From the NCBI GenBank assembly GCA_944324665.1, contig CALUXD010000002.1, positions 1-64,000 of the forward strand: a stretch of 64,000 nucleotides of DNA, in the 5' to 3' direction. This DNA comes from Candidatus Proelusimicrobium volucris (GTDB lineage: Bacteria > Elusimicrobiota > Elusimicrobia > Elusimicrobiales > Elusimicrobiaceae). The stretch's first letter is position 1. Each line of letters opens with the position of its first letter. Positions 11,226 through 51,907 of this stretch are shown piece by piece. The notes beneath the pieces were generated by a model. That model was given only the letters and a program-made list of their open reading frames with translations. It was not told the DNA's origin and searched no databases. Position numbers and translations under genes: made by a program.

Positions 11226-12167
11226 ATGAAAATCAGCAGAATATTGACTTTCGTTTTGTCTTTAGGATTGCTTAGCGTCGGCGTCGCCAATGCGGCTCCG
11301 GCAAAAAAGGCTGCCAAAAGCAAGCCCGTAACTATAACGGTGATAGAAATGACGGGTGATGCCAACGGCGGTGAAGACGAAGCGTTAAACGAGGGGCTTA
11401 AACAATTTATCGGCGGGGAAGTCGAGATTGTAAAAGTGGATAGAGAGCAAGCTCTTAAAGACGCCAAATATAAAGGATTGAACTTGGATTATATGCCTTT
11501 GTACTTGGTAGAGAAGACAAAATTAACGGAAGAAAAATTTGCCGAACCAATAAAATACGGCCAGTTGCCTACGACCGATGATTTTATTGTTTTTGAAAAA
11601 CAAACCAGAAACGGGGTATATGCCAACAAAGAAGCCGTACCCAATCAGCTTGAGATTTTTGTAATGTCTCAGTGCCCGTACGGCGTTTTGGCCGAGAACA
11701 GAATAATAGATGCGATGAAACTTGAAAGACTTCCCAAAGACGTGAACGTTAATATCAGGTATATCGTCAGCGAAGGCAGAAACGGCGAGCAGTTCAGCAG
11801 CTTGCACGGTTCGGCCGAGTGGGAAGAAAACGTAAGACAGTTGATCATCAAGAAAAGATACCCTAAAAAATTCTGGAAATATCTTGAAATAAGAAACAAA
11901 AATTATCAATCCAGCTTATGGGATCAGGCCGCAGAACAGGCCGGTATCAACCCGAAAGTATTCAGAAAATACTGGGACGAAGGCGTCGAGATGCTTAAAG
12001 AAGAAATTAAGCACAGTAATGAGTATAACGTAAACGCTTCTCCGACCGTAATCTGGGAAGGCAGAGTGGTAACCGATATGAACAGCTTGGCTTCAATGCC
12101 TGGTTTTGAGGGATTGGCTCAGACTTATGGTGCCGCACCTCAAGGAGCCCCTGCCGGACAGTGCTAA
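11226..12167 (+). CDS. Exported double-thioredoxin-fold protein, single active-site Cys
   Basis: A signal peptide (about 1-23) precedes two thioredoxin-like halves in 313 aa. The first (about 32-130) lacks cysteines. The second (about 140-295) carries 'MSQCPYGV' with Cys150 where a DsbA-type CxxC would be, and a cis-Pro loop 'NASPTVIWEG'. The second Cys of the motif is Gly. The only other Cys is the last residue, in 'PAGQC'. This fits a DsbA/DsbG-like oxidoreductase family but with altered chemistry: an isomerase, reductase partner or binding protein. It is the last gene before a terminator and may serve Tad proteins that contain cysteines. Confidence 0.72.
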   Translation: MKISRILTFVLSLGLLSVGVANAAPAKKAAKSKPVTITVIEMTGDANGGEDEALNEGLKQFIGGEVEIVKVDREQALKDAKYKGLNLDYMPLYLVEKTKLTEEKFAEPIKYGQLPTTDDFIVFEKQTRNGVYANKEAVPNQLEIFVMSQCPYGVLAENRIIDAMKLERLPKDVNVNIRYIVSEGRNGEQFSSLHGSAEWEENVRQLIIKKRYPKKFWKYLEIRNKNYQSSLWDQAAEQAGINPKVFRKYWDEGVEMLKEEIKHSNEYNVNASPTVIWEGRVVTDMNSLASMPGFEGLAQTYGAAPQGAPAGQC

Positions 12168-14087: not shown

Positions 14088-14100
14088 GGAAAGTAACGAT

Positions 14101-15216
14101 ATGGAAGAGAAACAGGAAAAAATATTAGTAGTAGATGACGATGATAATTTGCGCGGCACGCTTAGCGAACTGTTGGAGATAGAGGGCTATGACGTTTACC
14201 AGGCCGGCAGCGCGAAGGAATGTATGAGTCTGGTCAGGAATGATTTTTTTAATGTGATACTGATGGATTACAATTTGGTGGACGGCACCGGTTTGGACGT
14301 AGTAAAGCAGATAAGGCAATTTAATACACAATCGCAGATAATAATGATAACGGCGCACGCGTCGTTAAATGCGGTTGTCAAGGCGATACAGGAATCGGTA
14401 TACGACTTTTTGATAAAGCCGGTTGATTTCGACTATTTAAAACGCACGATAAAGATGGCTTTAGAGAAATTTTATTTGGAACAAAGCAACAGGAAACTGG
14501 TGGAGCAGTTAAAAGCGACGAATGCTGATTTGAGCAATCTCAACAGTATGAAGAGTAAATTTTTCTCGATAGTATCACACGATTTATCCAACTCTCTTAT
14601 GGCTTTGAAGATGAGCTATGATATGCTTCAAAAAACGATAAAAGATCCTGACGATAACCAAAAGAAGAAGATGCAATATATGAACGAGAGCTTAGGGCAG
14701 ATATTTCTGTTGGTTAAGGATTTGGTGGATTGGGCTGCCATAGAGAAGGGGAAATTGCGTTTGGAGAAAGCGGAATTTGATTTAACATCTTCTATACGCA
14801 GCGCTTTTGAGGTGTTTAAGGAAAAGGCAAAGCTTAAAGATATATATATGAGTTTTGAGGGGGAAGAAGATATACGCGTATACGGCGACGCCAAGAGAAT
14901 CAGGCAGGTAATATCGAATATAACCGAGAACGCGATAAGGCATACCCCCGAAAACGGATTGATAAAGATAAGCGTAGTGAAAATTGACGCCAAAAATGCT
15001 AAAGTGTCTGTTAAGGACAGCGGCGCGGGGATCAACCCTGAAGATACAAAGGAGCTGTTCAAAAGTTTTTATCAGAAGGGCACGGGCGGACGTTTGGGGC
15101 TGGGCCTTTCAATAGCGCAGGATATAGTTTTAAATCACGAAGGTAAGATATGGGCCGAAAGTGAGGGCGAAGGATGCGGTGCCACTTTCAATTTTACATT
15201 GCCCGTCATAAATTAG
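14101..15216 (+). CDS. Receiver-histidine kinase hybrid
   Basis: Residues 5-125 are a receiver domain with the acidic pocket DDDD (about 12-15), phospho-acceptor Asp56 in 'LMDYNLVDG', Thr in 'ITAHAS' and Lys in 'IKPVD'. Residues about 150-371 are a soluble kinase with H box 'SIVSHDLSNSL' (His160), N box 'NITENAIRHTPENG', G1 'DSGAGI' and G2 'LGLGLSIAQD'. There is no TM segment. The receiver-first order suggests a middle step in a phosphorelay from the kinase at 12258. It starts 13 bases after that gene. Confidence 0.92.
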   Translation: MEEKQEKILVVDDDDNLRGTLSELLEIEGYDVYQAGSAKECMSLVRNDFFNVILMDYNLVDGTGLDVVKQIRQFNTQSQIIMITAHASLNAVVKAIQESVYDFLIKPVDFDYLKRTIKMALEKFYLEQSNRKLVEQLKATNADLSNLNSMKSKFFSIVSHDLSNSLMALKMSYDMLQKTIKDPDDNQKKKMQYMNESLGQIFLLVKDLVDWAAIEKGKLRLEKAEFDLTSSIRSAFEVFKEKAKLKDIYMSFEGEEDIRVYGDAKRIRQVISNITENAIRHTPENGLIKISVVKIDAKNAKVSVKDSGAGINPEDTKELFKSFYQKGTGGRLGLGLSIAQDIVLNHEGKIWAESEGEGCGATFNFTLPVIN

Positions 15217-15225
15217 GAGAAATAT

Positions 15226-15891
15226 ATGCCAGCCAAGAAAAAAACAGTAAAAGTTCTTATAGCTGACGATCAAACTCTCTTCCGAGAAGGTATAAAAGAT
15301 GTTCTTACCGGGGAGAAGTGGATAGAGGTCGTCGGTGAGGCGGCTGACGGAGAGGAAGCCGTTTCTCTTACCAAGAAGCTGAAACCGGAAGTCGTTTTAA
15401 TGGATATAAAACTTCCGAAACTTGACGGGATAGCGGCTACCAGACAGATAAAGAAGAATCAGCCTGAAGTAAACGTATTGATGTTATCTAGCTTTGAGGA
15501 CGAGGCTCATGTAATGGAAGCGATACAAGCCGGAGCCAACGGCTATTTGTCAAAGATGCTGCCGGCGGCGGAATTGGTAAACTCCATACGGACGTTTACT
15601 TCAGAGGGCTTGATGATACCGCAGCAGCTTATGGGTAAATTGTTGCAGGGCTTAAGAAAAATGGGCGACAGTAATACCCCCGCACAAGCCGCATTGACAA
15701 AGACGGAGATAAGGGTATTGGACTTGCTCGGCCACGGTATGAGCAATAAGGAGCTGGCTCTGGAACTTGGCTGCAGTGTCAAGACGATAAAAAATCATTT
15801 AAACAGCGCGTTTCACAAGCTGGACGTTACGAGCAGAACGGAAGCGGTGGTAAAGGCTATCAAACTTGGGATAATATCTTCCGACAGGTAA
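15226..15891 (+). CDS. NarL/FixJ-family response regulator
   Basis: This 221-aa protein has an N-terminal receiver ('IADDQTLFREG', Asp60 in 'VLMDIKLPKLDG', 'LSS', and Lys in 'GANGYLSKMLP') and a C-terminal LuxR-type HTH (about 155-215, 'LTKTEIRVLDLLGHGMSNKE' then 'CSVKTIKNHL'). It is the probable DNA-binding output of the adjacent kinases. ATTAGGAGAAATAT gives its ribosome site. The prepilin gene follows 6 bases later, so the regulator and the distal pilus genes are likely on one transcript. Confidence 0.93.
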   Translation: MPAKKKTVKVLIADDQTLFREGIKDVLTGEKWIEVVGEAADGEEAVSLTKKLKPEVVLMDIKLPKLDGIAATRQIKKNQPEVNVLMLSSFEDEAHVMEAIQAGANGYLSKMLPAAELVNSIRTFTSEGLMIPQQLMGKLLQGLRKMGDSNTPAQAALTKTEIRVLDLLGHGMSNKELALELGCSVKTIKNHLNSAFHKLDVTSRTEAVVKAIKLGIISSDR

Positions 15892-16068: not shown

Positions 16069-17145
16069 ATGTCGTTTTGTTTTTATTCTATAAAGAACAA
16101 AAGAGCGCAGATAGTATTGCCGGCTATATTGTTGATACCGACGATATTGCTTGTAATATATCTGTTGTTTGAAACGGCAAAACTTTCCAGGGAAAAAATT
16201 CGCCATCAATTTGCGTTGGATACGGCCGCGTTTACGGAGCTTACGTCGGCTTCTCAGTATCTGAACGCGACGGCGTATTTAAACGGGGCGTTCCCGTTTA
16301 GGATTTTTAGGGAGAACTTGGCTCCGGAGGAGCCTGCTTTCCCTTTGAAAGGAGAAGAGAATAAAGAACTTAGCATTTATGAACTGTTTTATAGGGGCGG
16401 AGCTTTCCCCGCATTGGGCGACGCGGGAGAGTGGAACAGCGAACCGAAAGAGAGCGACACCGAATGGGAATTGAAATTTTATACCGAAGAATCCCCCGAG
16501 CGTTCGTCGTGGAATGATGCCGCGCCTCCTAGTATCGACGAGGACACCTTCTTCCCGGTAATGTCTAAGAAATATGCCGACGAATATTCCATCGGCTGGA
16601 ACCCGGACGCCGTAAAACTGTATATATTGGTATATTATTTTGTTAGCCAAATATACGAGGACCAGAAGAGTGTTTATATGCGTTTGAGCAAAGAGGGGGA
16701 ATTCTTCCGCAAAGGATACTATCTTAACGCCGGCGACTGCAAAATGAGCGAATGCGGGAGAGAGGGTTCAAAAGTTTTTAAGAATTATATAGCCGATACC
16801 GAACCGGTATATATAAAGAAAATAAAATTCTACTTTGTTAACCCAGATGACGGCACCGAGGACGCTAAGGAAATACAGTTTGACTTGGAAGAAGAAGACA
16901 TGATGGACGGGCGATTGTTTCAATATGCCCATGTAGGACGCAGCTATTTGAGCAAATTAAAGCGTTTGTATAAGGGGTTGGATATAACGCAAGAGTTTAA
17001 AGCGCCAAGCAACTATTTCAACGTTAATTTAAATAAGTTTAATCCGCGAAATCACGTTAGGGTGGCGTTACAATGTACGAAAGAGGACAACAACTGTATA
17101 TGGCCCAATCCTACGCCTAAATATCAAGTGAGGATATTTCCGTGA
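16069..17145 (+). CDS. TadG-like membrane-anchored pseudopilin
   Basis: This 358-aa protein has a short basic start (KNKRAQIVLPAIL), a single hydrophobic helix (about 14-36) and then a large extracytoplasmic domain rich in acidic and aromatic residues with two Cys pairs. The helix resembles TadG/TadE leaders but lacks the Glu5 of classical prepilins and has Ala at the expected Gly. Position between a Flp and a TadE gene supports a minor pseudopilin or tip role. The large C-terminal domain has no motif I recognise. Confidence 0.65.
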   Translation: MSFCFYSIKNKRAQIVLPAILLIPTILLVIYLLFETAKLSREKIRHQFALDTAAFTELTSASQYLNATAYLNGAFPFRIFRENLAPEEPAFPLKGEENKELSIYELFYRGGAFPALGDAGEWNSEPKESDTEWELKFYTEESPERSSWNDAAPPSIDEDTFFPVMSKKYADEYSIGWNPDAVKLYILVYYFVSQIYEDQKSVYMRLSKEGEFFRKGYYLNAGDCKMSECGREGSKVFKNYIADTEPVYIKKIKFYFVNPDDGTEDAKEIQFDLEEEDMMDGRLFQYAHVGRSYLSKLKRLYKGLDITQEFKAPSNYFNVNLNKFNPRNHVRVALQCTKEDNNCIWPNPTPKYQVRIFP

Positions 17146-17696
17146 GAATATTTGACAGGATAAGAACCAAAAAAGGGCAGGCGACTACGGAAGTTGTATT
17201 ATTGTTTCCGATATTCTTTATATTGACTTTGTTTATTATAAAGATATACGGGTTGCTGATCATAGTCCAGAAGACGGAGATAGCCTCTTTTTATGCGGCG
17301 CGCCGTTGGCAGCTGGAAAGCCACCGCGCGGTAAAATATGCCGACGGTTGGGATAATATGTTTTTAAAGAGAGACATAGAAAAGAAAGTAAGGGAATATA
17401 TCGGTTTTAATAATGCGGCTATGCGCAAGTTTTTGTCTTTAAAGAGCGTAGATCTTGAGGTAGAACGCACAAACGTGTGGAATAATATGACTTTAAAGGT
17501 AAGCACTTATCCGCCAAATATACCGTTTTTATGTTCGTACGATATAAGACAAGTGTGTAAGAAGCCTTACGGTTTGGCGTGCGAGCGCGGTTATAATTTT
17601 ATATGTAAGCGCGGCGGTTCAATAGAAGTAATCAAGAGAGTTCCCAACAGGGATAGGCCGATATCGTTCAGATTGCCGATGTCTAATCCTAACTGA
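17142..17696 (+). CDS. TadE-like pseudopilin, second copy
   Basis: A 184-aa protein that starts with GTG overlapping the previous stop (GTGA). It has a prepilin-like leader 'RTKKGQATTEVVLL' with Gly then QATTE, a hydrophobic helix (about 18-40) and a soluble domain with 'SFYAARRWQLESHRA', typical of TadE/TadF proteins. Four Cys lie in the C-terminal third. It is the last gene of the second pilus block. Together with the TadG-like gene it probably forms a minor-pilin complex. Confidence 0.75.
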   Translation: MRIFDRIRTKKGQATTEVVLLFPIFFILTLFIIKIYGLLIIVQKTEIASFYAARRWQLESHRAVKYADGWDNMFLKRDIEKKVREYIGFNNAAMRKFLSLKSVDLEVERTNVWNNMTLKVSTYPPNIPFLCSYDIRQVCKKPYGLACERGYNFICKRGGSIEVIKRVPNRDRPISFRLPMSNPN

Positions 17697-17714: not shown

Positions 17715-17743
17715 TTGACAAATAATAGGTTTGTTTGTAGACT
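17715..17743 (+). promoter_or_regulatory. Sigma70-type promoter, copy 1
   Basis: TTGACA at 17715-17720 and TAGACT at 17738-17743 are separated by 17 bases. The same -35, spacing and -10 recur at 19251-19279 ahead of the paralogous gene. Transcription would start near 17750, just before the structured leader. Confidence 0.8.
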
Positions 17744-17749
17744 TATTAT

Positions 17750-17864
17750 AAGTACATTCGTGCTGAAGATAGCTCCGTGTTTGAGGGCTCAGCAATAAAA
17801 AGCTGAGTCGGTCATCAGGGGCAAGATTTTTTGTATAAGAATTTAAATTTTAGGGGATAGGAAT
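17750..17864 (+). ncRNA. Structured leader RNA motif, copy 1 (candidate cis-regulatory RNA)
   Basis: The leader opens with a small hairpin, GTAC/GTGC (17752-17763). Invariant block TAGCTCCGTGTTTGAGG follows (17770-17786), then a variable 7-bp stem GCTCAGC/GCTGAGT (17787-17808), then invariant block TCGGTCATCAGGGGC (17808-17822). GCTCC (17772-17776) can pair with GGGGC (17818-17822), and TGA with TCA inside it, so the blocks close a bulged stem. The start codon is 42 bases downstream. The second copy at 19287 keeps the blocks and all stems with different stem sequence. I do not recognise a known riboswitch class. Structure is well supported; ligand and function are unknown. Confidence 0.72.
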
Positions 17865-19229
17865 ATGGCGGTAGTATTAAAAAGCAAAAACGGCGGAATG
17901 AAGAAAAGCCCCGTAAGCGCATGGCTGGGCTACGGTGCGGTAGCGGTATTTGGTTTGGCAATAATATCTACGGCTTTTATGGGCGGTGGAAATGCGCCGG
18001 ATCCGATGGATTCGGCATATAGCTATTCCGACTTTAAAGATTTGGCGGACATGCCTTTTTCCAATGAGGAAGCAGAAGCGCAGTTGTTATCGAGCGTAAG
18101 ATACGGCGATATAGCCAAGAACGATTTGATAAACGCATTATTTACGGAAGAAGACAAAGCAGAACGCCAAGCTGAAGACGCTGCAAACGGAGTGCCGGAG
18201 CCTCCAGACGAGGAGTATGCAGAAGCGGCAAAGGCCAAGGAAAATGTAAAAAGCGCGAAGGAGCGATATCAAAGAAGTAAGCAAGCGGCTAGGAATGCGG
18301 TAGCGCAGAGAACATCAAAAGGCTCTTTAAACGCGTCCAGCGGGGTTAGGGCGACGGGCGGAAGCAGCGGTGTAAGTGCGACTATTTGGCGTGCGGACGA
18401 TAAAAACAATAAATCTTCCGGTTCATCGGCGAATGTAAACAGCAGGGGCGGCGGCACTTTAAGCAACCAGCTGGCGCAGGAGTTAAAGAAAGGCGGACGC
18501 GGGGGCGGTTTTATGTCTGCTTATGAAAAGAGCCGCGCAGCAGCTAATGCGCAGGATTTAGAAGCGGCGCATGCGTTGGCGGCGGACGCGTTTCAAAATT
18601 CAGGCGATTTGGAAGGCGATTTGAAAGGAGATTTGGAGGATATGGCCGCGGAGATGGATTTGGATAAAGCGATTGGTGCGATAGATAAGGAAAAAGGTTT
18701 GACTAATACCTTAGACGAGAAACTTTCCGAAGCTAAAGACAATGCAGAAAAGAAGAGCAAGAAAGATTATAAATGTGACGGCGCTATGAGAAACGGGAAA
18801 ATAGATGGCGGCTGTATGGCTAACGAGTTTATGAATGCACTTATGGATATTGGTAAGCAAGCTTTAACATCATTGCTTAACAGAGGTAAGGGCGAATTAA
18901 CTCCGGAGGAAGCGGCAAATAAAAACTCTAAAATAGAAGCAATTGACCAAGAAATAGAGGGTTTGGAGGCTAAAGGCGAATTAAGCGCGAGTGATAAAGC
19001 GCGGTTGCAGCAATTAAAACAAGATAGTGCGTATCTCAATACTCCGGGGGTTGCAGATTTTAGTGAAGATTATATGAAGAGCAGGACAGAGAGATATAGT
19101 GAGGCGTTTCGACGTTATCAAATGGAAGACATGACAAAGAAAATGCAAGCGGAAAATAGAAAATTACAGCAAGAGCGGTTTGATAATTGGGTTAAAGATA
19201 GTCTGTTACGAGACAGTAAAAATCTTTGA
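17865..19229 (+). CDS. Region-2 protein 1: signal-anchored, low-complexity, paralog of protein 2
   Basis: This 454-aa protein has a TM helix at about 22-42, then a conserved module (about 50-125, 'DLADMPFSNEEAEAQLL' to 'NGVPEPPDEEY') shared with the protein at 19406. A charged coiled region comes next, then a Gly/Ser-rich stretch (about 145-215), an Ala-rich helical part, and a C-terminal half of long Lys/Glu/Gln helices likely to form coiled coil. Two Cys flank about residues 304-315. I know no family for it. Topology suggests an inner-membrane anchor with a large periplasmic part. AGGGGATA precedes the ATG. Confidence 0.8.
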   Translation: MAVVLKSKNGGMKKSPVSAWLGYGAVAVFGLAIISTAFMGGGNAPDPMDSAYSYSDFKDLADMPFSNEEAEAQLLSSVRYGDIAKNDLINALFTEEDKAERQAEDAANGVPEPPDEEYAEAAKAKENVKSAKERYQRSKQAARNAVAQRTSKGSLNASSGVRATGGSSGVSATIWRADDKNNKSSGSSANVNSRGGGTLSNQLAQELKKGGRGGGFMSAYEKSRAAANAQDLEAAHALAADAFQNSGDLEGDLKGDLEDMAAEMDLDKAIGAIDKEKGLTNTLDEKLSEAKDNAEKKSKKDYKCDGAMRNGKIDGGCMANEFMNALMDIGKQALTSLLNRGKGELTPEEAANKNSKIEAIDQEIEGLEAKGELSASDKARLQQLKQDSAYLNTPGVADFSEDYMKSRTERYSEAFRRYQMEDMTKKMQAENRKLQQERFDNWVKDSLLRDSKNL

Positions 19230-19250
19230 ATATAAAGTATATTTTTACCA

Positions 19251-19279
19251 TTGACAATTAAGGGGTTTATTGGTAGACT
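19251..19279 (+). promoter_or_regulatory. Sigma70-type promoter, copy 2
   Basis: TTGACA at 19251-19256 and TAGACT at 19274-19279 have a 17-base spacer, identical in -35, -10 and spacing to the promoter at 17715. It gives the downstream genes their own start inside the cluster. Confidence 0.8.
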
Positions 19280-19286
19280 TAAAGTA

Positions 19287-19405
19287 GGCACTTGGTGTGC
19301 CAATAAATTAGCTCCGTGTTTGAGGATATTCCGGCGGTAATGGGGTATCGGTCATCAGGGGCCGATTTTATTGCATATCAGATTTGTATTTTAAGAGGAT
19401 AAAGT
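19287..19405 (+). ncRNA. Structured leader RNA motif, copy 2
   Basis: The order matches copy 1: hairpin GGCAC/GTGCC (19287-19301), block TAGCTCCGTGTTTGAGG (19309-19325), 7-bp stem ATATTCC/GGGGTAT (19326-19348) and block TCGGTCATCAGGGGC (19348-19362). The ATG lies 43 bases later. GCTCC (19311-19315) pairs with GGGGC (19358-19362). The inner stem has a wholly different sequence from copy 1 yet still pairs over 7 bp, which indicates selection on RNA structure rather than leftover duplication. Confidence 0.72.
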
Positions 19406-20401
19406 ATGTCGATAATTATTAGGGGCGCCGGCGGCAAGAGAGGCGGAGAAAAGAACCAAATATATACATGGGCTGCGTGTATAATGGTGTTGGTTTTTGC
19501 AATCTCTATAGGAGTTGCCGTAAAAGGTGCGAAGAAACAAACTCCCTCAGAGGCGGCATACCGCAAACAGGCATTTGATTTGGGCAATATGCCTTTTGAC
19601 GACGACAGTGCCGAGGCGTATTTGTTGGCATCCAATAAATATGACGATATAGCGCGAAAAGATTATATAAACGGCTTATTTACTAAGAAACAGAAAGAGG
19701 AGCGGCAAGCCGATGACGCTTTGAACGGAGTACCGGTCGCTCCAGATGACGAATATAAAGCGGCGCAAGATGAAAAAGAGGCAAAGAAGATAAGAGAGAG
19801 TATTGCTGAGAAAAAGAGGAAAGAAGCTAGACCAAAAAATGCACGCCCGATTACTCCTAAAGGCTCTTTAAGTGGTGGTTCGATGGTAAGTGTTTCTGGC
19901 GGCGGTGGCGGAATGAGAGGGACGGTTTCCAATGTGGGAAGTAGTTCCGCCAATGTCCAATCTGGCTCGAAGATGACCCAAGCGCAAGCCGCTTTAATAA
20001 ATCAAGTAAAAGGCGGAAAGGCATTGGGCTTCCAGCATGCGGTGATGGCAAGTGCTCAAGCTGCTAACAGCAGAGATTTAGAGTCGGCGGCAGGCGGCTC
20101 GGTGGATGCTTTTCAAAAAGGGGCAATGGATGTTGGCCAAGACTTTTTAGAAAGCGATTTGGAAAAAGATTCTGGCGCTTTAAACGTTGATGAAGAAGAT
20201 TTAAGAGATAAGCTGGAACGTGCTGGCAACAGTGGAGAGCTAGAAGGGTTGGACTCTAAATTAGAAGATTTAAAAAAAGAGAAAGAGGAAGAAGAAGCAG
20301 AGACTTGTGAGCAAAATCCTCTCCAAGGTGCGTGTCTTATAAACTGGGGTATGGATTTGGCTAAAATGGCATTGGGTGCATGGTTAGGCGGAATATTTTA
20401 A
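19406..20401 (+). CDS. Region-2 protein 2: paralog of protein 1
   Basis: The 331-aa protein has a TM helix at about 19-40 and then the shared module (about 52-118, 'DLGNMPFDDDSAEAYLL' to 'NGVPVAPDDEY'), clearly homologous to protein 1. A charged helix, the segment KGSLSGG and a Gly/Ser/Val-rich stretch ending in SSANVQSG follow, also shared. The C-terminal third is acidic coiled coil with two Cys and a final hydrophobic segment. It lacks the last 120 residues of protein 1. The two genes arose by duplication together with promoter and leader. Function unknown. Confidence 0.8.
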   Translation: MSIIIRGAGGKRGGEKNQIYTWAACIMVLVFAISIGVAVKGAKKQTPSEAAYRKQAFDLGNMPFDDDSAEAYLLASNKYDDIARKDYINGLFTKKQKEERQADDALNGVPVAPDDEYKAAQDEKEAKKIRESIAEKKRKEARPKNARPITPKGSLSGGSMVSVSGGGGGMRGTVSNVGSSSANVQSGSKMTQAQAALINQVKGGKALGFQHAVMASAQAANSRDLESAAGGSVDAFQKGAMDVGQDFLESDLEKDSGALNVDEEDLRDKLERAGNSGELEGLDSKLEDLKKEKEEEEAETCEQNPLQGACLINWGMDLAKMALGAWLGGIF

Positions 20402-20430
20402 CTTTAAATAGCATAATAGGAGTTTGGTGT

Positions 20431-21939
20431 ATGAAAAATATATTAAACAGAATAGGAGCGGTGTCAAAACCCGTAATATTCGGTGCGGCTTTGGGCGTTG
20501 CCACCGTTGCGGTTGGTATTGGAGTAGCTACCAACTTGATGAGTGACGGGCCTAAAGGCGTATCCGGGCGCGTATTGGGGCAATACAGTGCGGATACCGC
20601 TTCGGTGGGCTCAGGCGGTGGATATGGAGCTTTTTCCAAAGAAGCCTTGGAACAGCAAATGGCTGCAGCTCAGGCCGCGCGTGAAGGCGGAACTGCGTTA
20701 GATTATTTGGGAGCAGCCGGCAGAAATAGATTTGCTTATGGTGACAATGCAAGCTCTTATGGAAGCGGAGTAGTGGATCCTATGGCTATGAACAATGCCG
20801 CTTATGAAGGCGGGGAGAACCTAGCCTCAGTTGGTGGTATGCCATCTGACATAGGTGCGGCAATGAATCAATTTAATGCTACTGCGGCGGCCGTAAGTGC
20901 TAAAGCTGGCCAAGGCGAAGGCGCAGCTGGGGAAGAGGGCGGAACGGAAAAAGGTGCTTTAGAAAAAGCGGAAGCGTCTGCTACCCAGCTTAACAAACTT
21001 AACAGAAGCAATATGTTTGGCGGAAGTTCAGCTTCCGGAGTTTCTTCAGGCGGCGGCGCTCGCAATATGGGCGGTATTATGGGGGCTATGTCTTCCGATA
21101 AAGCTGCTCAGAAAGCTGTTCCTTCTGTAAATATGGGCAATATTCCGGAAAGTAATATAAGCGGCATTGCAAGCGCAAAACACGGGCGTCTTGGCGCCAT
21201 GGGTGGCAGCAATTCAAGAGGCGGAACAAGCGGTAATGGCGGCAGCGGACAGGCTTACTTTACCAGCACAATGGGAGAGTTGGTTTCCGCGCAGAAATAT
21301 TCGGCTTTGGGAAAAGGCACGGTATATAGTGATGCGGAAAAAGGCTTTGTAGAAGCATCAGCGGCTTTTGACGGCAGCGGAGACGTTGAGGAGGGTACGC
21401 AAATAACCGGCAGTACTCCTATGATAGAAAAAGCAGCTGCTTTGGATAGAGAAGCTAGTACTATTAACAAGAACGGAAAGGGTACGACTGTCGGAGGTAT
21501 TGATAATTTTACGCAGGCTAGTGATAAATATCGTGACGCTGTCTCTAAGATATGGACTACAATTATTACAATGATAGGTATGACTATCGGCGGTATTATA
21601 GCAGTTATGGCAGCGCATAAGGCTACGGCATGGCTAGGGGGCGTTGGCGGCTATATAGTTGCAGCTATTATGACCGCAGTGATTATTGGATTCGGAATGG
21701 GAATGATGGGCCTGTATGTAAATAGAATAAACAATTTGGGATATGGCTTATCTGCGGGTCCTTGGAACCATATGAGATATTGGTTGCCGATAGCTTTCGG
21801 GGCATTGCCATGGTTGGGCCTGTTGACTTCTACGGGTACTAAGATGTCAGCTGTCTTGGGAACTTTGGGCGGCAAATTAATGGCAGGCGTAGGGGCAATG
21901 GCTCTTTTAAAAGGAGCTTCAGGTTATTTAGGTTTTTAA
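20431..21939 (+). CDS. Region-2 protein 3: Gly/Ala/Ser-rich multi-TM protein
   Basis: A 502-aa protein with an N-terminal TM helix (about 12-33), then about 340 residues of Gly/Ala/Ser-rich sequence. The C-terminal part has four to five hydrophobic segments (about 375-500) resembling a membrane domain. Residues about 245-335 share a module with protein 5: 'KHGRLGAMGGSNSRGG', then a 'YFTS..' segment and 'DGSGDVEEGTQITG'. ATAGGAG gives the ribosome site for the ATG at 20431. An earlier in-frame ATG at 20380 would overlap the previous gene. I cannot name a family. A pore or anchor role is conceivable from the topology. Confidence 0.75.
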   Translation: MKNILNRIGAVSKPVIFGAALGVATVAVGIGVATNLMSDGPKGVSGRVLGQYSADTASVGSGGGYGAFSKEALEQQMAAAQAAREGGTALDYLGAAGRNRFAYGDNASSYGSGVVDPMAMNNAAYEGGENLASVGGMPSDIGAAMNQFNATAAAVSAKAGQGEGAAGEEGGTEKGALEKAEASATQLNKLNRSNMFGGSSASGVSSGGGARNMGGIMGAMSSDKAAQKAVPSVNMGNIPESNISGIASAKHGRLGAMGGSNSRGGTSGNGGSGQAYFTSTMGELVSAQKYSALGKGTVYSDAEKGFVEASAAFDGSGDVEEGTQITGSTPMIEKAAALDREASTINKNGKGTTVGGIDNFTQASDKYRDAVSKIWTTIITMIGMTIGGIIAVMAAHKATAWLGGVGGYIVAAIMTAVIIGFGMGMMGLYVNRINNLGYGLSAGPWNHMRYWLPIAFGALPWLGLLTSTGTKMSAVLGTLGGKLMAGVGAMALLKGASGYLGF

Positions 21940-21970
21940 ATATTATGTAAGAATACAGTAACAGGTGTTT

Positions 21971-22480
21971 ATGTATAATAAAAAAGATTATTTAACTATA
22001 TTGGCGGCATTTGTTGGCAGCTGGATATTAACATCGATTGTAAGCGGATATATAGATGTTAAAACTAAAAAGGAAATTGAAACCATAAAAGCCAACTATG
22101 AAGCAGAGCTAAGAGAGCAAGGCCTGCTGCCTAAAGAGGAACCCCGTCGTATTAAGACAGAGATATATATACCGGTAGACAGAACGGGGCAGGCCAATAG
22201 GGCAGACAGTACGGCAATGTTCTTAAAGTCGGCGCAAGATACTTTCGGCTATAAGGAAGAGGATCGACTTGAAACGGTTGATTACGGATCCCAAGTTGAT
22301 GAGTATCAGCAGAGAGTTAATGCTATTAAGAGGGCTGAAGCTCAGAAATTGCAGCAACAGAGGGCTCAGCAAGAGGCGTTAAACAGAAAGATTAACAGGC
22401 CTTCTCAGCCCAAAAGCGGAGTTTCAGGCGGGCAGAGCGGAAGTACGAGGGTCAACAAATTGAGGACTTCCAGCCTATAA
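21971..22480 (+). CDS. Region-2 protein 4: small signal-anchored coiled-coil protein
   Basis: The 169-aa protein has one TM helix (about 6-25), then a Lys/Glu helix, a Pro-containing linker, and a Gln/Arg/Ala-rich coiled coil (about 110-145). Its tail is Ser/Gly-rich and basic. No known motif is seen. The ATG at 21971 is preferred to a GTG at 21965. The anchor-plus-rod layout would suit a linker between inner membrane and periplasmic parts of the complex made by its neighbours. Confidence 0.65.
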   Translation: MYNKKDYLTILAAFVGSWILTSIVSGYIDVKTKKEIETIKANYEAELREQGLLPKEEPRRIKTEIYIPVDRTGQANRADSTAMFLKSAQDTFGYKEEDRLETVDYGSQVDEYQQRVNAIKRAEAQKLQQQRAQQEALNRKINRPSQPKSGVSGGQSGSTRVNKLRTSSL

Positions 22481-22539
22481 GGTTCTCAAGGCGATAAAAT
22501 CTAGACGCCGCGATAAAGAAAAGGGAAAAGGGTAATGGT

Positions 22540-24072
22540 ATGAAAAACAAAAACATAGTTAGAGACAGAAACAAAAAGACTCCTTTTTATAAGAATAAGA
22601 GGGGCATATTGGCGGTAATTTTACTGCTGTTACTGTTCTTTCTTACGGCTATAACTATGCCTATGTCGGAAATACCTTTGCTTGGACGTATGGGAATAAT
22701 GTTTGGGCTTACCGACGAATCCATGCGGGCTTTGACATTATCTGATTTCGCGGCGTATACTTTTGGTATAGAGGGCGGAGGAAGGCTGGCTTCCGTCCGG
22801 AACGGACAATATTCCGTTTACGAAAGCAGCGGTGGGCTTTCTCCTTTTACTTTGCAAAGCTCCAACCGTCTTTTAGATGCGCAAGAAGCGTATAGAAAGG
22901 AATTTGAGAAAATGGGCCGTTACAGTGCGATAGCGGGATCGGCTTCTGGTTTAAATTTGGAGGATCCGGAAGGGATCGCGTATCAGATGGGAATGAATGC
23001 TGTAAGCCCGTATATAGATGGGACAACGAACGCCGCAGCGGCGGACGAATACGGCCAGCCATTTGTGAAGCCTTTTGATGAAATGGCTTTAGATCAGGTA
23101 TATGCTGCAAGTTCTAGCGGTAAAAGAGATGCGAAGGGTAATATCATTTTATCAGGCAGCGATAAAACAAAAATTTTAAAGCCGTCTAATTTGGGGGATA
23201 TAAAATCTGCCAGAAGTGATGAGAACAGCATGTATTTCCAATCTTTAGATAGCCAAGCCAAGAAACTGCACGGCGGTCGTTTGGGAGCCTTTGGCGGTAT
23301 AAACGCAATGACAAGCAGAATAAGAACCAGTATTTCTTCGGGACGGCAAATGGGAGCTTTTGGTCATTCCGGCAGAGAGATGGGCCGTGTATATTATTTG
23401 AGTGCCACCGCAAAAGGGCAGAAGTATAACGATGTGGCAAAAAATGTTGTAGAGGCGGCCTGGGATGGCGGCGAGGTTGAGGAAGAGGATTTACTGGCCG
23501 TAGGGGAGGAAACGGAAAAAGCTGTTGACTCTTTGGAGCCTCCTTCAACGATAATAGATAAGGCGACGAAAGCCCGCGGAGCATGCGCTGCGGCGCGCGC
23601 CGCTTTTGATCAGGCTTTAAACGATACGGGCAAGGCATACAGAAATTTAGAAGCAAAACTGATACAGGCAGGTAAAGATTCTGGCTCCAACACGGGTGTT
23701 CCGGGATCATGCAGCGCAAATTGGCCGAAAGGCTCTGCGAAATCAAAAGCTAAGCGGAAGGAATGGAATGCCTATATAGACGCGATGAAGACTACGTGTA
23801 ATGAATTGCGCAATATCGGCGGTGATTATGCCGGTCAATGCGGGCTTAATTATGAGACTACTGTATCTTGCAGCAAACTTGACGAGGCAAAAGCCAAAGG
23901 GAAGACTTGGGGCGGCAATGTTTGGACTTTATTGACAAGATTTAAGAAGTGTAAGAATAATTCAATAGACAATAACGGCAACAGTTTAAAAATAGATAAA
24001 GTCAACACGATACTTACCGATGTCCGCAAAGGTGCGGGTTTAGACGGTACGGTAGCGGATAATTTCTTTTAA
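22540..24072 (+). CDS. Region-2 protein 5: signal-anchored protein sharing a module with protein 3
   Basis: This 510-aa protein has a TM helix at about 23-42 after a basic N-terminus. Next comes a long region with 'SDFAAYTFGIEGGGRLASV', then the module shared with protein 3 (about 243-330, 'LHGGRLGAFGG' ... 'YYLSATAKGQKYNDVAKNVV' ... 'DGGEVEEEDLL'). The C-terminal domain carries seven Cys (about 345-480), probably disulphide-bonded in the periplasm. AAAAGGGTAATGGT precedes the ATG. No family is recognised. It ends 145 bases before the next gene, which has its own promoter. Confidence 0.75.
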   Translation: MKNKNIVRDRNKKTPFYKNKRGILAVILLLLLFFLTAITMPMSEIPLLGRMGIMFGLTDESMRALTLSDFAAYTFGIEGGGRLASVRNGQYSVYESSGGLSPFTLQSSNRLLDAQEAYRKEFEKMGRYSAIAGSASGLNLEDPEGIAYQMGMNAVSPYIDGTTNAAAADEYGQPFVKPFDEMALDQVYAASSSGKRDAKGNIILSGSDKTKILKPSNLGDIKSARSDENSMYFQSLDSQAKKLHGGRLGAFGGINAMTSRIRTSISSGRQMGAFGHSGREMGRVYYLSATAKGQKYNDVAKNVVEAAWDGGEVEEEDLLAVGEETEKAVDSLEPPSTIIDKATKARGACAAARAAFDQALNDTGKAYRNLEAKLIQAGKDSGSNTGVPGSCSANWPKGSAKSKAKRKEWNAYIDAMKTTCNELRNIGGDYAGQCGLNYETTVSCSKLDEAKAKGKTWGGNVWTLLTRFKKCKNNSIDNNGNSLKIDKVNTILTDVRKGAGLDGTVADNFF

Positions 24073-24124
24073 TTAGCAGGGGTAAATAGGTATTAAGGGC
24101 GTTTTTATATACATTACAAACAAG

Positions 24125-24153
24125 TTGACAGGGGTATAAAATTGTAGTGTAAT
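24125..24153 (+). promoter_or_regulatory. Sigma70-type promoter for protein 6
   Basis: TTGACA at 24125-24130 and TGTAAT at 24148-24153 are 17 bases apart. The start codon at 24218 has the ribosome site AGAGGAGG. The leader lacks the conserved blocks found at 17770 and 19309. Confidence 0.6.
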
Positions 24154-24217
24154 GGTGGGAAGAAGGCAGGACCAGATTTGCAGTTGCAGTAAATAATAAA
24201 TGTAAAGAGGAGGCACT

Positions 24218-27200
24218 ATGCCAAATAAGGATAGCTTTACGTTTAGCGATAAGTTAAAGAAGAGTAAATCTCTTCCATTATCCAAACGTATTCCCTCCCG
24301 TGTAGGAGGAGACGGCAAAGCCAAGCGGACTCTAATTCAAAGAGCCCAACGGGATTTGCCATTTATAATAGTGGCTGCCGCAGCCTTATTGCTGCTGCCA
24401 TTATTAAGCCGCAACAGCGGCACTGACGCGACCGGGTTTGAAGGTTCGGGCTATGACGATTTTGTAGGTGAATCCCTGTACGACTATCCGTCTTCGGGTG
24501 ATGGTGAAATCGTTCCCAGCACGGGCTATAGAGATCCTATGGACTACATTATAACCAATCGCAGCGGAATGGATACTCCCAGCTTAAGCGATAGCTATGA
24601 TTCCGAGGATACTTCTTCTTATATATCGCATGCGCAGTCATCTTATGAGGAAGAGAAGCCTCAAAGAGAGATATATAAGAATGTAGCCAAGCCGTCTATC
24701 CGTAATGCCGTTCAGCGCAAAGCTACGGCCATAGGTGCTTTTAGAAACCGCGCGATGAGTTTTGGCAACAGCAGTTCAGGATTAACTCGCAACTTGGCGA
24801 TTGGCGGGGCTCCTACGACTACGGGTACAGCGGCAGCTAGAGTTGGCGTTAGGCCAGTGGCTTTACAGCCGCTTAGCTCGGCAGGCAAAGGCAGAGTACT
24901 TACCGGGGAAGGTTTATATGCTGAGGCGGCTCGTTCCTTAGGAGCTTTAAACCAAGGTTCAGCCAAGCAGGCATTGTTTGAAGCTCAGCTTCGCGATGTA
25001 GACGGTGCTCCGTTAGGTGCGGCCGGAGATCCGAGGAGAGCTGCTGCCAGGATAGGTTCTCAAGGCGGGGTTCCCGATCATAAATTCGGATACACCAATG
25101 AGCGTCCTTGGTGGTGGGATATGATGAAAGAGCGTTCCCAAAAGATGTGGGAGCTTTGGAACTACAACTGGCAGAAGGCTTTGTCCGATTCGTTGATAAA
25201 AGTATCTACGAACTTGGCGATGTGTCTTTTGACGGGTTCCGAAGACGGTTCGGTAAAGAACTTTTTGGGTATAAAAGGCGGTTCTAAAGATGTTTGCTGT
25301 TTGGTAGACGGTATGGAACTTTGCGCGGGCGACATTGGCGATTATACGTCCTCTACAAGCGGCTCAGGCGACAGCAAAGAAACGACGAATAATTCTTTCT
25401 CTTCGATACAGGCTTTCTGCGATTCCCACGGAGCTAAGACTTATGTTTCCGAATCAGGAGCCAAAAACGCTTTACAGGCGAGGCTTGAATGTATGGGCTT
25501 GAAAGCCGGCAAGTTGGCTTGGGCTTCCGGGACGAACTATGCGGGTTCTTGCGCGGACGTGAATAAGACTCCTATGGTTTATAAAGCCACCGCTACGCGT
25601 AAAGCCGACGGCAAAGTGCGTGACAGAAAGAATGAGAAGATTGTCGTATACGTAAAGGCCAAACCCAGAGAGAATATTGATACTAAAACAGCTAACAATG
25701 AGTTTGTTATAGCCTTGGAAAAGACTAATGAATTTGCTTTGAGTGCCGAAGAATTAAAGGCCATTAACACAAACTGCGAAATTACCAGAGTTGGGTCTTT
25801 CGTATCGAAGAATACAAAGAGGAAAATATCCAATAAGGTCGGGCAGTATAATGACGACAAGGAATCTATAACGGAGGAAAATGCTGAGGAAAATTCGGAT
25901 AAATTAAAGAGCGGCAGATATACAAAACAAGAAGAAAAGAATTCTAGCGAAGGTGGAGAACTTAAGATCAGCGAGTATATAATAGGCAAGGTGAATGATC
26001 AGTACAATTATTGTATCAGCGAGAATGCCGTCAAGCCTGCGGAATTTATTGATGAAGATGATATCATGGAAGATATCAAGGTTAAAACCGAAATCAATGA
26101 AGTCTGCCCGATATGGTATTCCGACGGATATTTGGATAATCAGCAAACAAACAGCATATCCTGTGTTTCGGAAGATCCCGTAGAAATTGATGTGTTGGCG
26201 GAATCCAACTTCTCTGTAGATGTTGTTAATCCCAAAGATAATATCTTTGCGATATTTGTGGAGTATGTACAAACAGGATCCGGCAAAGACGGCAAAATAG
26301 GGCCTGTAGTAAAAGAAATGAAAAATGCCTCTGGCATGGTAAAGACTAAAATCGGCGACAAAGTAAGATATACAGTGCCGGGTTTCAGGCCGGGTAAATC
26401 CTTATCCAGCAGCACGGAAGATTCCAGCGGCAAAGCGAGCCCTGGCAACGGAAAGGTGTTTTGGCTGATGACCAATAAAGAAACGCCCACAGTGGATGTC
26501 GGCCATATCTTTGAGGGCAGGTTTCTTGATGATATAAAAGCCGAAGATCTTATCGGCCCTACTGCGGGATATAAACAGGCTCAGTGTTTCTACAAATGGG
26601 GTTGTAACGGAGAAGAGTGTCCGCCCGCACCGGTTACCGGTACCTTCTGTAGAGAAGACGGTAAACTCTATAAAGCTGTGCAGGTTGAAGGATATTTCTT
26701 TAGAGCCACCGACAAAACCCAGAATGTGATGGGGGAGGATCTTAAGAATTATTCTAGGAGCGATAAAGAATGTGGAGAGGATACTAATAAGTTCATCTCT
26801 AAACAACCTCAATGCTCTAAACTGTGCAAATATACGGATACGGAGATGTATGGTATATATCCGTATAGCAAAGATACTATATTGAAGAAAGAAAGTCTGC
26901 AAAATGTTGCCAAAGATGTATTGGATAACTGTGAGGAATGTTATCCTAAAGATGAAGGCGAACAAAGAGAAGTAGAACAAACGGGAGATTGTGTTTTTAA
27001 TGTATCCTCGACATTCTGCACTTATCAGTTTACGAGATTTGGTTCTGGCAGCAGTTCCAATTGTAAAGATATGGATGAGGATGGCATTAAGAAAGTTCAG
27101 TCTCAGACTGCTGATTTACTCCAATGCTTAAAGGGAAATGAGATGAAGATCGGCTTGTATGGGTGGACTTCCGCTTCCGGAGGCGAGAAAAATAAGGGAC

Positions 27201-27925
27201 TTTCCCAAGCTAGGGCTCTTAAGGTTGCGCAGATCGTATATGAATATATACAGCAGAAAGATCCGAACCTCTATATAGAGTTTGCTTTCCCCTCTGACTT
27301 TACGGGTATTCCCGGATTTAACAGGAATAATAAGAGCGGATATACTTCGGAGTCTGATTATATATCCAATGTGAAACAAAATTATCCTGTTGATCAGGGT
27401 GAAAATCCTCATAAAGCGAAAATAGAGGAAGCCAGAAAGACCTATATTGCCAAAAGAGAAGCGACTGACGCTGCTAGACGTGCATTGAATAATTATAGCA
27501 GTGATACTGTGAATGGTGCGGCTATACTCAGCAAACTTGACAACAATGAGGACGCTAAAATTGAGGAAGAAATACGCGTCTTGGAAAAGAAACTCAATGA
27601 GGCTGGCTTTGATGAAAGTATAGAAATTCAAGTGCAGATTAACGAAAAGAATAGACTCCTTGAGGAAACTAGAGCCAAAGTACAGTTGTCGCCTGAAGAG
27701 GAGGCTTTGCCGGAATATCAAGCTTATAGGCAAGCCAAACAGGAAGAGCTTGATTATAAGAATAACGAATTGGCGGAAGCACGCAGATTATCAAGAAGAT
27801 TGGTAATTTACGTAAGCGGACAAGGTGCTTCTGCTGGTTCTAAAGCTGATGAACATTGGGCTAAATGTATTGCGGGTAAAGTGATAAACGATAACGACTA
27901 TACACCTCAACCTTGCAGACAATAG
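24218..27925 (+). CDS. Region-2 protein 6: giant signal-anchored protein with split OmpA-like C-terminus
   Basis: The 1235-aa protein has a TM helix at about 46-64 after a basic N-terminus, then a Ser/Gly/Tyr-rich stretch and an Ala-rich part (about 150-290). A Trp cluster sits near 302-322 and a Cys-rich central region at about 355-930. From about 965 it resembles an OmpA/MotB peptidoglycan-binding domain: 'GLYGWTSASGGEKNKGLSQA' continuing RALKVAQIV, and, after about 155 residues of mostly coiled coil, the final strand 'SRRLVIYVSG' near 1192. If correct, the domain is split by a helical insertion. It may tether the assembly to the cell wall. The OmpA match is by eye only. Confidence 0.75.
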   Translation: MPNKDSFTFSDKLKKSKSLPLSKRIPSRVGGDGKAKRTLIQRAQRDLPFIIVAAAALLLLPLLSRNSGTDATGFEGSGYDDFVGESLYDYPSSGDGEIVPSTGYRDPMDYIITNRSGMDTPSLSDSYDSEDTSSYISHAQSSYEEEKPQREIYKNVAKPSIRNAVQRKATAIGAFRNRAMSFGNSSSGLTRNLAIGGAPTTTGTAAARVGVRPVALQPLSSAGKGRVLTGEGLYAEAARSLGALNQGSAKQALFEAQLRDVDGAPLGAAGDPRRAAARIGSQGGVPDHKFGYTNERPWWWDMMKERSQKMWELWNYNWQKALSDSLIKVSTNLAMCLLTGSEDGSVKNFLGIKGGSKDVCCLVDGMELCAGDIGDYTSSTSGSGDSKETTNNSFSSIQAFCDSHGAKTYVSESGAKNALQARLECMGLKAGKLAWASGTNYAGSCADVNKTPMVYKATATRKADGKVRDRKNEKIVVYVKAKPRENIDTKTANNEFVIALEKTNEFALSAEELKAINTNCEITRVGSFVSKNTKRKISNKVGQYNDDKESITEENAEENSDKLKSGRYTKQEEKNSSEGGELKISEYIIGKVNDQYNYCISENAVKPAEFIDEDDIMEDIKVKTEINEVCPIWYSDGYLDNQQTNSISCVSEDPVEIDVLAESNFSVDVVNPKDNIFAIFVEYVQTGSGKDGKIGPVVKEMKNASGMVKTKIGDKVRYTVPGFRPGKSLSSSTEDSSGKASPGNGKVFWLMTNKETPTVDVGHIFEGRFLDDIKAEDLIGPTAGYKQAQCFYKWGCNGEECPPAPVTGTFCREDGKLYKAVQVEGYFFRATDKTQNVMGEDLKNYSRSDKECGEDTNKFISKQPQCSKLCKYTDTEMYGIYPYSKDTILKKESLQNVAKDVLDNCEECYPKDEGEQREVEQTGDCVFNVSSTFCTYQFTRFGSGSSSNCKDMDEDGIKKVQSQTADLLQCLKGNEMKIGLYGWTSASGGEKNKGLSQARALKVAQIVYEYIQQKDPNLYIEFAFPSDFTGIPGFNRNNKSGYTSESDYISNVKQNYPVDQGENPHKAKIEEARKTYIAKREATDAARRALNNYSSDTVNGAAILSKLDNNEDAKIEEEIRVLEKKLNEAGFDESIEIQVQINEKNRLLEETRAKVQLSPEEEALPEYQAYRQAKQEELDYKNNELAEARRLSRRLVIYVSGQGASAGSKADEHWAKCIAGKVINDNDYTPQPCRQ

Positions 27926-27944
27926 CGTTAAGTAAAAATCTTAA

Positions 27945-27976
27945 AATCCCCCGGTTTAAACCGGGGGATTTTTATT
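27945..27976 (+). terminator. Terminator at the end of the novel cluster
   Basis: AATCCCCCGG/CCGGGGGATT forms a 10-bp stem with loop TTTAAA, followed by TTTTTATTT. It closes the region begun at 17.7 kb. Confidence 0.93.
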
Positions 27977-28187: not shown

Positions 28188-30065
28188 ATGTTTAAGGCGC
28201 GTGAGTGTAAGATATATATACTGCTTTTTGTTCTGGCTTTTGCTGTGGGGCATCTCAACGCCGCATTGCCTAAATTCTTGGGCGGCAGCGGCATCGGCGT
28301 AAGCGGAAATAAAGCCAATTTGGAGGGCAAATATCCCACTTTTTGGGATAATTTGATGGTAAATCAATCCTATACCAATATGTATCAAGGCATAAGGGAA
28401 TTGAGCGTATCAAAGTATAAAGAGGCCTCCCAATCTTTTGCAAAGGCGGTAATAAAAAATCCAGATGACCCTTACCCACATATATTTTTGGGTGCCGCGC
28501 TTTATTGGCAGGGGCAGGTTGATCAGGCGATGTCGGAATATCGCGCGGCTTTAAAACTAGACCCGGAAAACGCGCACGCGCACCAGCTTATGGGCATAGC
28601 TTATGCTTGGAAGGGCGACATAAATTCAGCCTTGGAAAGTTTCAAAAAAACCGTCGAGATTGATCCCGACCGCCCCGACAGCCAAATGAATTTGGGCTCC
28701 ACTTACGCCGCCTTGGGCAATTACGACGAAGCACTGTTCCATTTCCGCAACGCCGTGCGCTTGGATAAAAACCACCCTTTGTACCACTATCAGCTTGGCT
28801 CGCTCTACGAGGTTATGGGGCGGGATAATTTGGCTGAGGACTCTTTTAAAAAAGCTTTGCGCCTTTACCCGAATTATGAAGAAGCTATGCTTGCTTTGGC
28901 GGTGCTTAGCGAGAAACAGGGCTCCTCTACCAAGGCCGAATTAAATTACAGAAAAGCGCTTAAAATTAAACCGGGCGACAGCGTGGCGCGTTTCCGTCTG
29001 GCCAATTTATTGGCGCGCGAAAACAGAAAAGACGAAGCGGTGGAATTTATCAGCCGCGCGTTTTTAATATCGCCGCTTTCCGATGAGGGCCTTGCTCTTT
29101 CGCTTTCCTATTCAGGCGGCAAGAAAAACGAATCGGAGCCTTCGGCCTCGGCGGGCGATTCAAACGGGGGGCCAAATGCAGACTCTTTAAAATCTGATGG
29201 CGGGGAACAATCTCTTGAGGATAGTTCCGAATCCAATTTGCCCAATACCGCTCCCGATCTAAAAATGCCGCCGCCCGACAAACAGCTCGATAGCTTCAAA
29301 AAACGGCTTGAACGCATACCCGCCGATAAACCGCTTAATATAGATTTGGAAATTCAGCTTGAGCCTAAACTAAAACCCTCGGATTTATTTGACGCGCCCC
29401 CTGAGGAAGGCGGCGTGCCGATAGCTCCGCCCTCGATGCTGCAAGCCTCTTGGGAGACTGCCGAGAAGCAGGCTCTGACGCGTTCGTTCAGCCGTTCCTT
29501 CGCGCTTAGGCCTTCGACCGAGGAAGAACGCAAAGAGTATATAGAAAGGATTTTTAACGGCCTTAACGACGTATTAAACAACGCTTCCAAAGAGTATGAC
29601 GTAAAAATGTCTATACGCGGCGGCGCGGCGGTAAACGACAGCTCCACGCTGAGAAATCAATCCAAATCTAATTCAAAAGCGGCATATAATCCGTATATGG
29701 TGGGTAATGATATGGGGCTTTGGGTCGCGGGCAAAGGCTGGGTTAAATACGTCAAAGAAGTAGGGCAGGAGGTTTCCGCCAGATTAAGCGGGGGCGACGG
29801 ACGCGATTATATGATAGCAGGCCTTTCCGCTTTAACTTTGGGTGAAGGCAAAGAAGCCTTGCTCTCTTTTACTCAAGCATATGACACCGCTGAAAAAGAG
29901 GGGAATAAAACCCTTATGGAAATGGCACTTTTGGGAAGAGGAACGGCCTATATAATACTCGGCGGGGAAGATGAAGCTCTTAAAGAGTATGAAGCCGTCT
30001 TAAAACTTAACCCCGAAAATAAAATAGCTTTGGAAAATAAAAATATATTGTTGAGCGAAAAATAA
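28188..30065 (+). CDS. Exported TPR-repeat protein
   Basis: The 625-aa protein has a signal peptide (about 1-25, ending HLNAA). Seven or so TPRs fill about 60-310 ('PHIFLGAALYWQGQVDQAM', 'DPENAHAHQLMGIAYAWKGD' and similar), followed by a low-complexity Ser/Gly/Asp linker (about 310-350), a region of unknown fold (about 370-540) and a closing TPR pair (about 545-620). It probably scaffolds envelope protein complexes. It is followed 2 bases later by ksgA, an unrelated housekeeping gene. The start is possibly leaderless. Confidence 0.82.
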   Translation: MFKARECKIYILLFVLAFAVGHLNAALPKFLGGSGIGVSGNKANLEGKYPTFWDNLMVNQSYTNMYQGIRELSVSKYKEASQSFAKAVIKNPDDPYPHIFLGAALYWQGQVDQAMSEYRAALKLDPENAHAHQLMGIAYAWKGDINSALESFKKTVEIDPDRPDSQMNLGSTYAALGNYDEALFHFRNAVRLDKNHPLYHYQLGSLYEVMGRDNLAEDSFKKALRLYPNYEEAMLALAVLSEKQGSSTKAELNYRKALKIKPGDSVARFRLANLLARENRKDEAVEFISRAFLISPLSDEGLALSLSYSGGKKNESEPSASAGDSNGGPNADSLKSDGGEQSLEDSSESNLPNTAPDLKMPPPDKQLDSFKKRLERIPADKPLNIDLEIQLEPKLKPSDLFDAPPEEGGVPIAPPSMLQASWETAEKQALTRSFSRSFALRPSTEEERKEYIERIFNGLNDVLNNASKEYDVKMSIRGGAAVNDSSTLRNQSKSNSKAAYNPYMVGNDMGLWVAGKGWVKYVKEVGQEVSARLSGGDGRDYMIAGLSALTLGEGKEALLSFTQAYDTAEKEGNKTLMEMALLGRGTAYIILGGEDEALKEYEAVLKLNPENKIALENKNILLSEK

Positions 30066-51900: not shown

Positions 51901-51907
51901 TTATATT

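Follow-up and report, generated by a model that had tools for sequence, protein, structure and literature searches.

What do six adjoining genes of no recognised family, lying beside a Tad pilus locus, contribute to a bacterial envelope, and how is their expression set? The genes in question, A to F, occupy positions 17865-27925 of a 64,000-nucleotide stretch (hereafter the window; positions 1 to 64,000 of contig CALUXD010000002.1, assembly GCA_944324665.1) from Candidatus Proelusimicrobium volucris, a gut-type member of the order Elusimicrobiales with a genome of about 1.5 Mb. To our knowledge, the cell envelope of Elusimicrobia has been little studied, and a gene set that is kept over much of the class and is unmatched in the libraries searched offers a handle on what sets this envelope apart. 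An earlier note, made from the sequence alone, had suggested that the six proteins form an undescribed trans-envelope machine or surface structure. Our analysis confirms that the gene set is conserved far beyond chance and identifies, in one family, a covarying leader RNA dedicated to it. We favour, at roughly even chances, the reading that A-F constitute a lineage-specific envelope complex reaching from the inner membrane to the peptidoglycan and expressed via this attenuator-like RNA.

A gene set conserved over much of the class

Open reading frame (ORF) calling fills the interval with six collinear ORFs on the + strand, placed as the earlier note had described: A (17865-19229, 454 amino acids), B (19406-20401, 331 amino acids), C (20431-21939, 502 amino acids), D (21965-22480, 171 amino acids, with 84-219 among relatives), E (22540-24072, 510 amino acids) and F (24218-27925, 1235 amino acids). 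C most likely begins at 20431 (MKNILNRIG...), which is the 18th codon of its longest ORF and the start common to the relatives.

Comparisons were made with 60 relatives and with 294 genomes of the phylum, using profile searches within Elusimicrobiota and, in the relatives, gene calls from a simple ORF picker. C is the member with the widest conservation: a widened profile recovers its family in 120 of the 294 genomes, comprising nearly all members of the Elusimicrobiaceae-like family f1 and most of family f2, with further matches in f7, f8, f12 and f13 (one or two genomes each). Near the window, in genus g1, the order reads TadG-TadE-A-B-C-D-E-F-TPR-KsgA, and in genus g6 it reads TadG-TadE-A-C-D-C2-E-F-TPR-KsgA with some local variation. 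Other g1 genomes, belonging to one sub-clade, carry A-C-D-C2-E elsewhere and F alone, while in the group of E. minutum, which we take to be the single-contig relative G018, A-C(-D) stands apart from F. Family f2 displays the order X-A-C-C2-E-F, flanked by unrelated genes; X, found upstream of A at the head of the f2 cluster (L109-L114), is an additional bitopic protein of about 400 amino acids related to A/B.

The order A-C-(C2)-E-F is thus kept in f1 and in a second family. The cluster as such characterises a good part of the class, and its position beside Tad characterises part of f1. The earlier note had regarded scattering of the members among relatives as counting against a common system; F is indeed unlinked in the E. 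minutum group and in one g1 sub-clade; in the former, however, each of the two separated parts is headed by the same leader RNA.

A gene encoding a tetratricopeptide repeat (TPR) protein with a putative signal peptide, gene G (28188-30065, + strand), lies 3' of F in 17 loci and is probably a seventh member of the cluster. It follows F in most linked loci, including those where Tad is absent.

Paralogy and a shared helical module

A and B are paralogs (36% identity; hhalign E 4e-42), in agreement with the earlier note, and so are C and C2 (profile E 3e-35). Beyond these pairs, profile comparisons connect X with A/B (probability 82% over 229 columns), A/B with C (probability 95%, E 5e-8, 74 columns; 2.5% for the reversed control) and C with E (hhalign probability 93%, E 4.5e-7, 90 columns). 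The comparison of A with F gives 83% with one alignment set and 5% with another, and the F profile also matches, at E ~1e-3, two proteins 7 kb upstream of F, at the place of A. The shared part is a short helical stretch with AF(D/E)G-like residues at its end. The module that had been proposed for two proteins is recovered in C and E, but it appears to extend more widely, with profile links among X, A, B and C and, weakly, between A and F. We read the cluster as the probable product of ancient tandem duplications within a single type of bitopic protein, to which F may or may not belong.

Protein anatomy

Hydropathy assigns one N-terminal hydrophobic segment to each of A-F. Basic residues are more numerous before this anchor than after it in A, C, E and F, as in an N-in/C-out orientation, and the charge rule indicates no clear orientation for B and D; the large parts after the anchors are presumably periplasmic. 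The single N-terminal anchor previously claimed for all six proteins holds for F and for the bitopic A, B, D and E, but C, although it has the N-terminal transmembrane (TM) segment, is polytopic; some 3-4 additional TM helices lie at its C-terminus, and most relatives have about 3-4 hydrophobic segments in total. In the structure model of the window protein, the N-terminal TM segment and a Gly/Ala/Ser-rich disordered middle precede a C-terminal four-helix bundle (predicted local distance difference test, pLDDT, 70-85), the remainder being mostly disordered. The structure models are of modest confidence, with a mean pLDDT of 43 for C and 63 for F.

F combines a TM segment at residues 46-64, an invariant cytoplasmic motif (SFTFSDK), an invariant PWWWD, 26 cysteines and a rapidly diverging C-terminal half. 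Its AlphaFold2 (AF2) model features an Ig-like beta-sandwich at about residues 641-799 (26138-26614, + strand; VIA-align Z 8.2, rmsd 3.0, 106 aligned residues) and, at the end of the protein, a helix-strand fold with a coiled-coil insert. An OmpA-like match (PF00691) covers residues 964-1008 (27107-27241, + strand) with E 0.0039 and 18 bits, below the cut-off of 27.2 bits, and the same family is weakly matched by 5 of the 15 F relatives, at best with E 0.0022. The OmpA-like ending announced by the earlier note is therefore retained in a weaker, degenerate form. At the OmpA-type binding site, the Asp of the motif GHTD is lost in the window's F (GWTS) and present in the presumed E. minutum copy (L043), and the Arg is kept. 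The description of some proteins as Cys-rich applies to F and partly to E, whose six cysteines include four that are invariant within the E family and belong to a domain present in addition to the shared module, but not to A-D. Farther upstream, in the Tad locus (11226-12167), we observed a weak DsbA/thioredoxin-like match, whose product is a possible helper for the Cys-rich proteins F and E.

Sequence searches in Pfam, NCBIfam, PHROGs and PDB named no family for A-E, in line with their original description as unrecognised, and F, apart from its weak OmpA-like match, was not named by them either, with no match in the PDB sequence search. Several candidates were rejected. Matches of C to TrbL/VirB6, SDF, ABC and DUF2207 families are all sub-threshold and inconsistent, and its FliQ match (E 0.97) is attributed to chance; Foldseek with C returned nothing below E 0.7, and VIA-align generic helical bundles only. 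For protein E, the matches to haemagglutinin and gp120 (E 0.025 or worse) are helical or coiled-coil coincidences that vanish with a wider alignment at E 0.1, and the fibrinogen match of A/B (E 0.02) is likewise a coiled-coil chance match. Foldseek with F retrieved Ig-like domains of many proteins, indicative of a fold rather than a family, and barely probed its other parts.

A covarying leader RNA precedes A, B or F

The gaps 5' of A (168 nucleotides, nt) and of B (176 nt) contain near-identical blocks on the + strand. Each opens with a TTGACA-17-TAGACT promoter (17715-17743 for A, conserved among relatives; 19251-19279 for B), continues with a hairpin of layout GCUCC-GUGUUUGAGG-stem-CGGUCAUCA-GGGGC (17772-17822 and 19311-19362, respectively) and ends in a U-run, which is a U-tract at 17827-17832 in the first copy and the U-rich TTTTATTG in the second. 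F probably has a separate promoter, as an alignment of four relatives reveals a conserved TTGACA in the E-F gap (24125-24130, + strand), and it is followed by an intrinsic terminator with a perfect 13-pair stem (27943-27972, + strand). The cluster's own promoters, leader RNAs and terminator, all proposed earlier, are thereby substantiated.

The hairpin comprises 17 pairs. Its internal loop, UGUUUGAG / GGUCANCA, hardly changes while the variable tip covaries, so the loop is probably what a binding partner recognises. In an alignment of 39 copies, 98.3% of the pair cells are standard, two-sided changes affect 11 of the 17 pairs, and covariation amounts to 0.532, versus 0.206 after shuffling and at most 0.163 with slid partners; this alignment was fitted to the covariance model, which favours the structure. 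An independent alignment of nine copies displays compensatory changes in five pairs. The promoter, U-tract and gene counts exclude one doubtful copy of the 39, L070 (E 0.14). A promoter with at least 10 of 12 matches is found just 5' of the hairpin in 38 of 38 copies, the 9 nt after the stem contain a mean of 6.3 T compared with 3.3 over the remaining leader, and the span from promoter to U-tract is about 70-100 nt.

A covariance model built from the nine copies produced 37 matches, including three weak ones, in 28 of the 60 relatives at E values of 0.1 or less, and a second model located the RNA in 73 of the 294 phylum genomes, with one or two copies each, exclusively in four f1 genera; the E-values of these models are rough by construction. 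Among the 37 testable copies, the downstream gene is A/B in 34 and F in three, the 38th copy lying at a contig end. The presumed E. minutum genome carries copies at 646144 (5' of F) and 711412 (5' of A), 65 kb apart. Being small, covarying and findable by model in new genomes, the RNA links A and F even when they are distant. In one locus (L066, 1839-2631 in reverse-complement coordinates), some 700 nt are apparently inserted between the leader RNA and A.

The covarying structure and its constant place between a promoter and an A/B or F gene are those of a cis-acting leader RNA. Hairpin and U-tract together look like an intrinsic terminator, as expected of an attenuator, and termination may depend on conditions. 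None of the leaders reached the gathering score of a family in Rfam 15; sub-threshold matches (E up to 5; four copies, three lineages) look like chance. The leader RNA is thus new to Rfam 15 and, in the genomes searched, dedicated to one envelope cluster. A limited open-access literature search on RNA motifs in Elusimicrobia retrieved PMC9413887, whose title and abstract concern histidine regulation, and the titles and abstracts of the pilus and Tad literature found in a similarly limited search had no bearing on the locus. Elsewhere in the window, an RNase P RNA class A gene lies at 51576-51901 on the minus strand.

Relation to the Tad locus

The cluster starts directly after a TadE-like gene (17142-17696, + strand), as first reported, the assignment relying on a PF07811 match just under the cut-off (E 0.001). 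This gene is preceded by a TadG-like or minor pilin-like gene (16069-17145, + strand) that has no family match and is syntenic with TadE in f1. The cluster lies 3' of TadE in about 18 f1 loci; the two are unlinked in the f2 loci examined, in the E. minutum group and in part of g1. A tie to the Tad pilus is not supported as a general feature. Because Tad is near-universal in the relatives, 56 of 60 of which encode the Tad marker RcpC, co-occurrence is uninformative; we discarded it as evidence for a link, and the phyletic profile that the earlier note had put forward says nothing about one. Searches in Pfam and NCBIfam matched none of A-F to TadE, TadF, TadG, Flp or class III signal peptide families, and the gene in front of A is the sole TadE-like one.

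Other features of the upstream region are an apparent TadZ-TadA fusion of 739 amino acids in the Tad locus (3625-5844), in which a ParA/CbiA-like N-terminal part is joined to a T2SSE ATPase, a Tad secretin homolog of only 247 amino acids that extends barely beyond the secretin domain (2877-3620), and genes for a histidine kinase, a hybrid kinase-receiver and a LuxR-type regulator 5' of TadG-TadE (12258-15891), whose order is kept in f1.

Discussion

The anatomy deduced from these sequences is most economically explained by a trans-envelope complex. Paralogous inner-membrane proteins (A/B, C/C2 and E, with X in f2) would stand side by side via their anchors and the shared helical module, C would provide a polytopic membrane base, and F, the largest subunit, would span the periplasm with its Ig-like domain and touch the peptidoglycan or the outer membrane with its OmpA-like end. 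In f1, transcription would begin at a sigma-70-type promoter, some 10-30 nt 5' of the hairpin, which the nascent RNA would fold within about 90 nt. Hairpin and U-tract would then act as a conditional terminator, and read-through into A and the genes after it would be decided by a factor or ligand that recognises the invariant internal loop. The identity of the sensed signal would tell when the bacterium builds the structure.

Several observations weigh against this proposal. The periplasmic part of C is predicted to be disordered, the Asp of the OmpA motif (GHTD) is replaced in the window's F (GWTS), the f2 F proteins examined have no obvious OmpA end, and several genomes have F apart from A-C/E. 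On the RNA side, the basal stem is lost in the global minimum free energy structure of 8 of the 38 leaders, and a terminator would be weakened by the 2-5 nt that lie between stem and U-tract. The RNA was found neither in f2 nor in the f1 genera g3 and g5 among the 294 phylum genomes; therefore, the protein system does not need it.

Other explanations account for part of these data. A-F could be lineage-specific accessories of the Tad (type IVc) pilus, forming a tether, tip or adhesin complex with TadE/TadG. Two points speak for this: about 18 f1 loci have the cluster right behind TadG-TadE, with the two-component genes and the remaining Tad locus lying 5' of these, and RcpC is frequent in the relatives. 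We nevertheless find it rather unlikely, given that further f1 genomes, like the f2 loci examined, have the cluster among unrelated genes and that its proteins match neither TadE nor class III signal families. We assign a similarly low probability to a purely structural scaffold that tethers peptidoglycan and outer membrane, without a moving or exporting role, and replaces Pal/OmpA-type tethers in the class: wide conservation within the class, the OmpA-like and Ig-like parts of F and its rapidly diverging C-terminal half would suit it, whereas a dedicated leader RNA points to a conditional rather than a constant need. Very unlikely, in our view, is a secretion or conjugation-like channel built on C as a VirB6/TrbL-like base; the C-terminal bundle is polytopic and 2 of 19 C members weakly match TrbL/VirB6 (E ~0.01-0.02), but this sparse match scores 15 bits against a cut-off of 25.9, is no better than those to SDF, ABC and DUF2207, and is accompanied neither by a recognised type IV secretion system (T4SS) gene in the loci examined nor by anything specific in the structure search.

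For the RNA, the hairpin might instead terminate a separate trans-acting small RNA, with whose size the distance of about 70-100 nt from promoter to U-tract agrees, or serve as a translational switch whose CUCY strand can mask the Shine-Dalgarno sequence; in many copies, CUC in the 5' strand of the basal stem is the complement of GAG in the ribosome-binding site. One or the other is a possibility we take seriously while doubting it; the placement of each testable copy just 5' of A/B or F argues for action in cis. Returning to the envelope complex under attenuator-like control, a bolder version would see in it a new class-wide trans-envelope machine of Elusimicrobia, made of a tandem-duplicated bitopic family, a polytopic base and an OmpA/Ig-tipped subunit, and governed in one family by a new class of ligand- or protein-sensing RNA dedicated to it. 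We put this forward tentatively, as something that may well prove too ambitious.

Comparison with known systems

Both envelope complexes of several proteins and leaders of the attenuator type are familiar kinds of system, and the protein and RNA families described here have no match in the libraries searched. The cluster adjoins, on the same strand, a Tad/Flp (type IVc) pilus locus that in the window includes RcpC, a secretin, a TadZ-TadA-like ATPase, TadB/TadC, a TPR protein and TadG/TadE-like proteins, but neither a prepilin signal nor a Tad family is recognisable in A-F, which lie away from Tad in many genomes. With OmpA/Pal envelope proteins, F shares a C-terminal OmpA-like segment; it differs from them by its inner-membrane anchor, its Ig-like domain and its coiled-coil insertion, as well as by the loss of the OmpA-motif Asp in the window. 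The polytopic C-terminus of C and its weak profile match recall VirB6/TrbL of type IV secretion, although no other T4SS gene was recognised and the match is below the cut-off and inconsistent over the C family. Attenuator-type leader RNAs and riboswitches, among them the targets of LicT/BglG-type antiterminators, are well-known regulators. Like these, the leader RNA of the cluster combines a promoter, a conserved hairpin with an internal loop, a U-tract and a gene directly downstream; unlike them, it has no match in Rfam 15, and the genes associated with it all belong to one envelope cluster.

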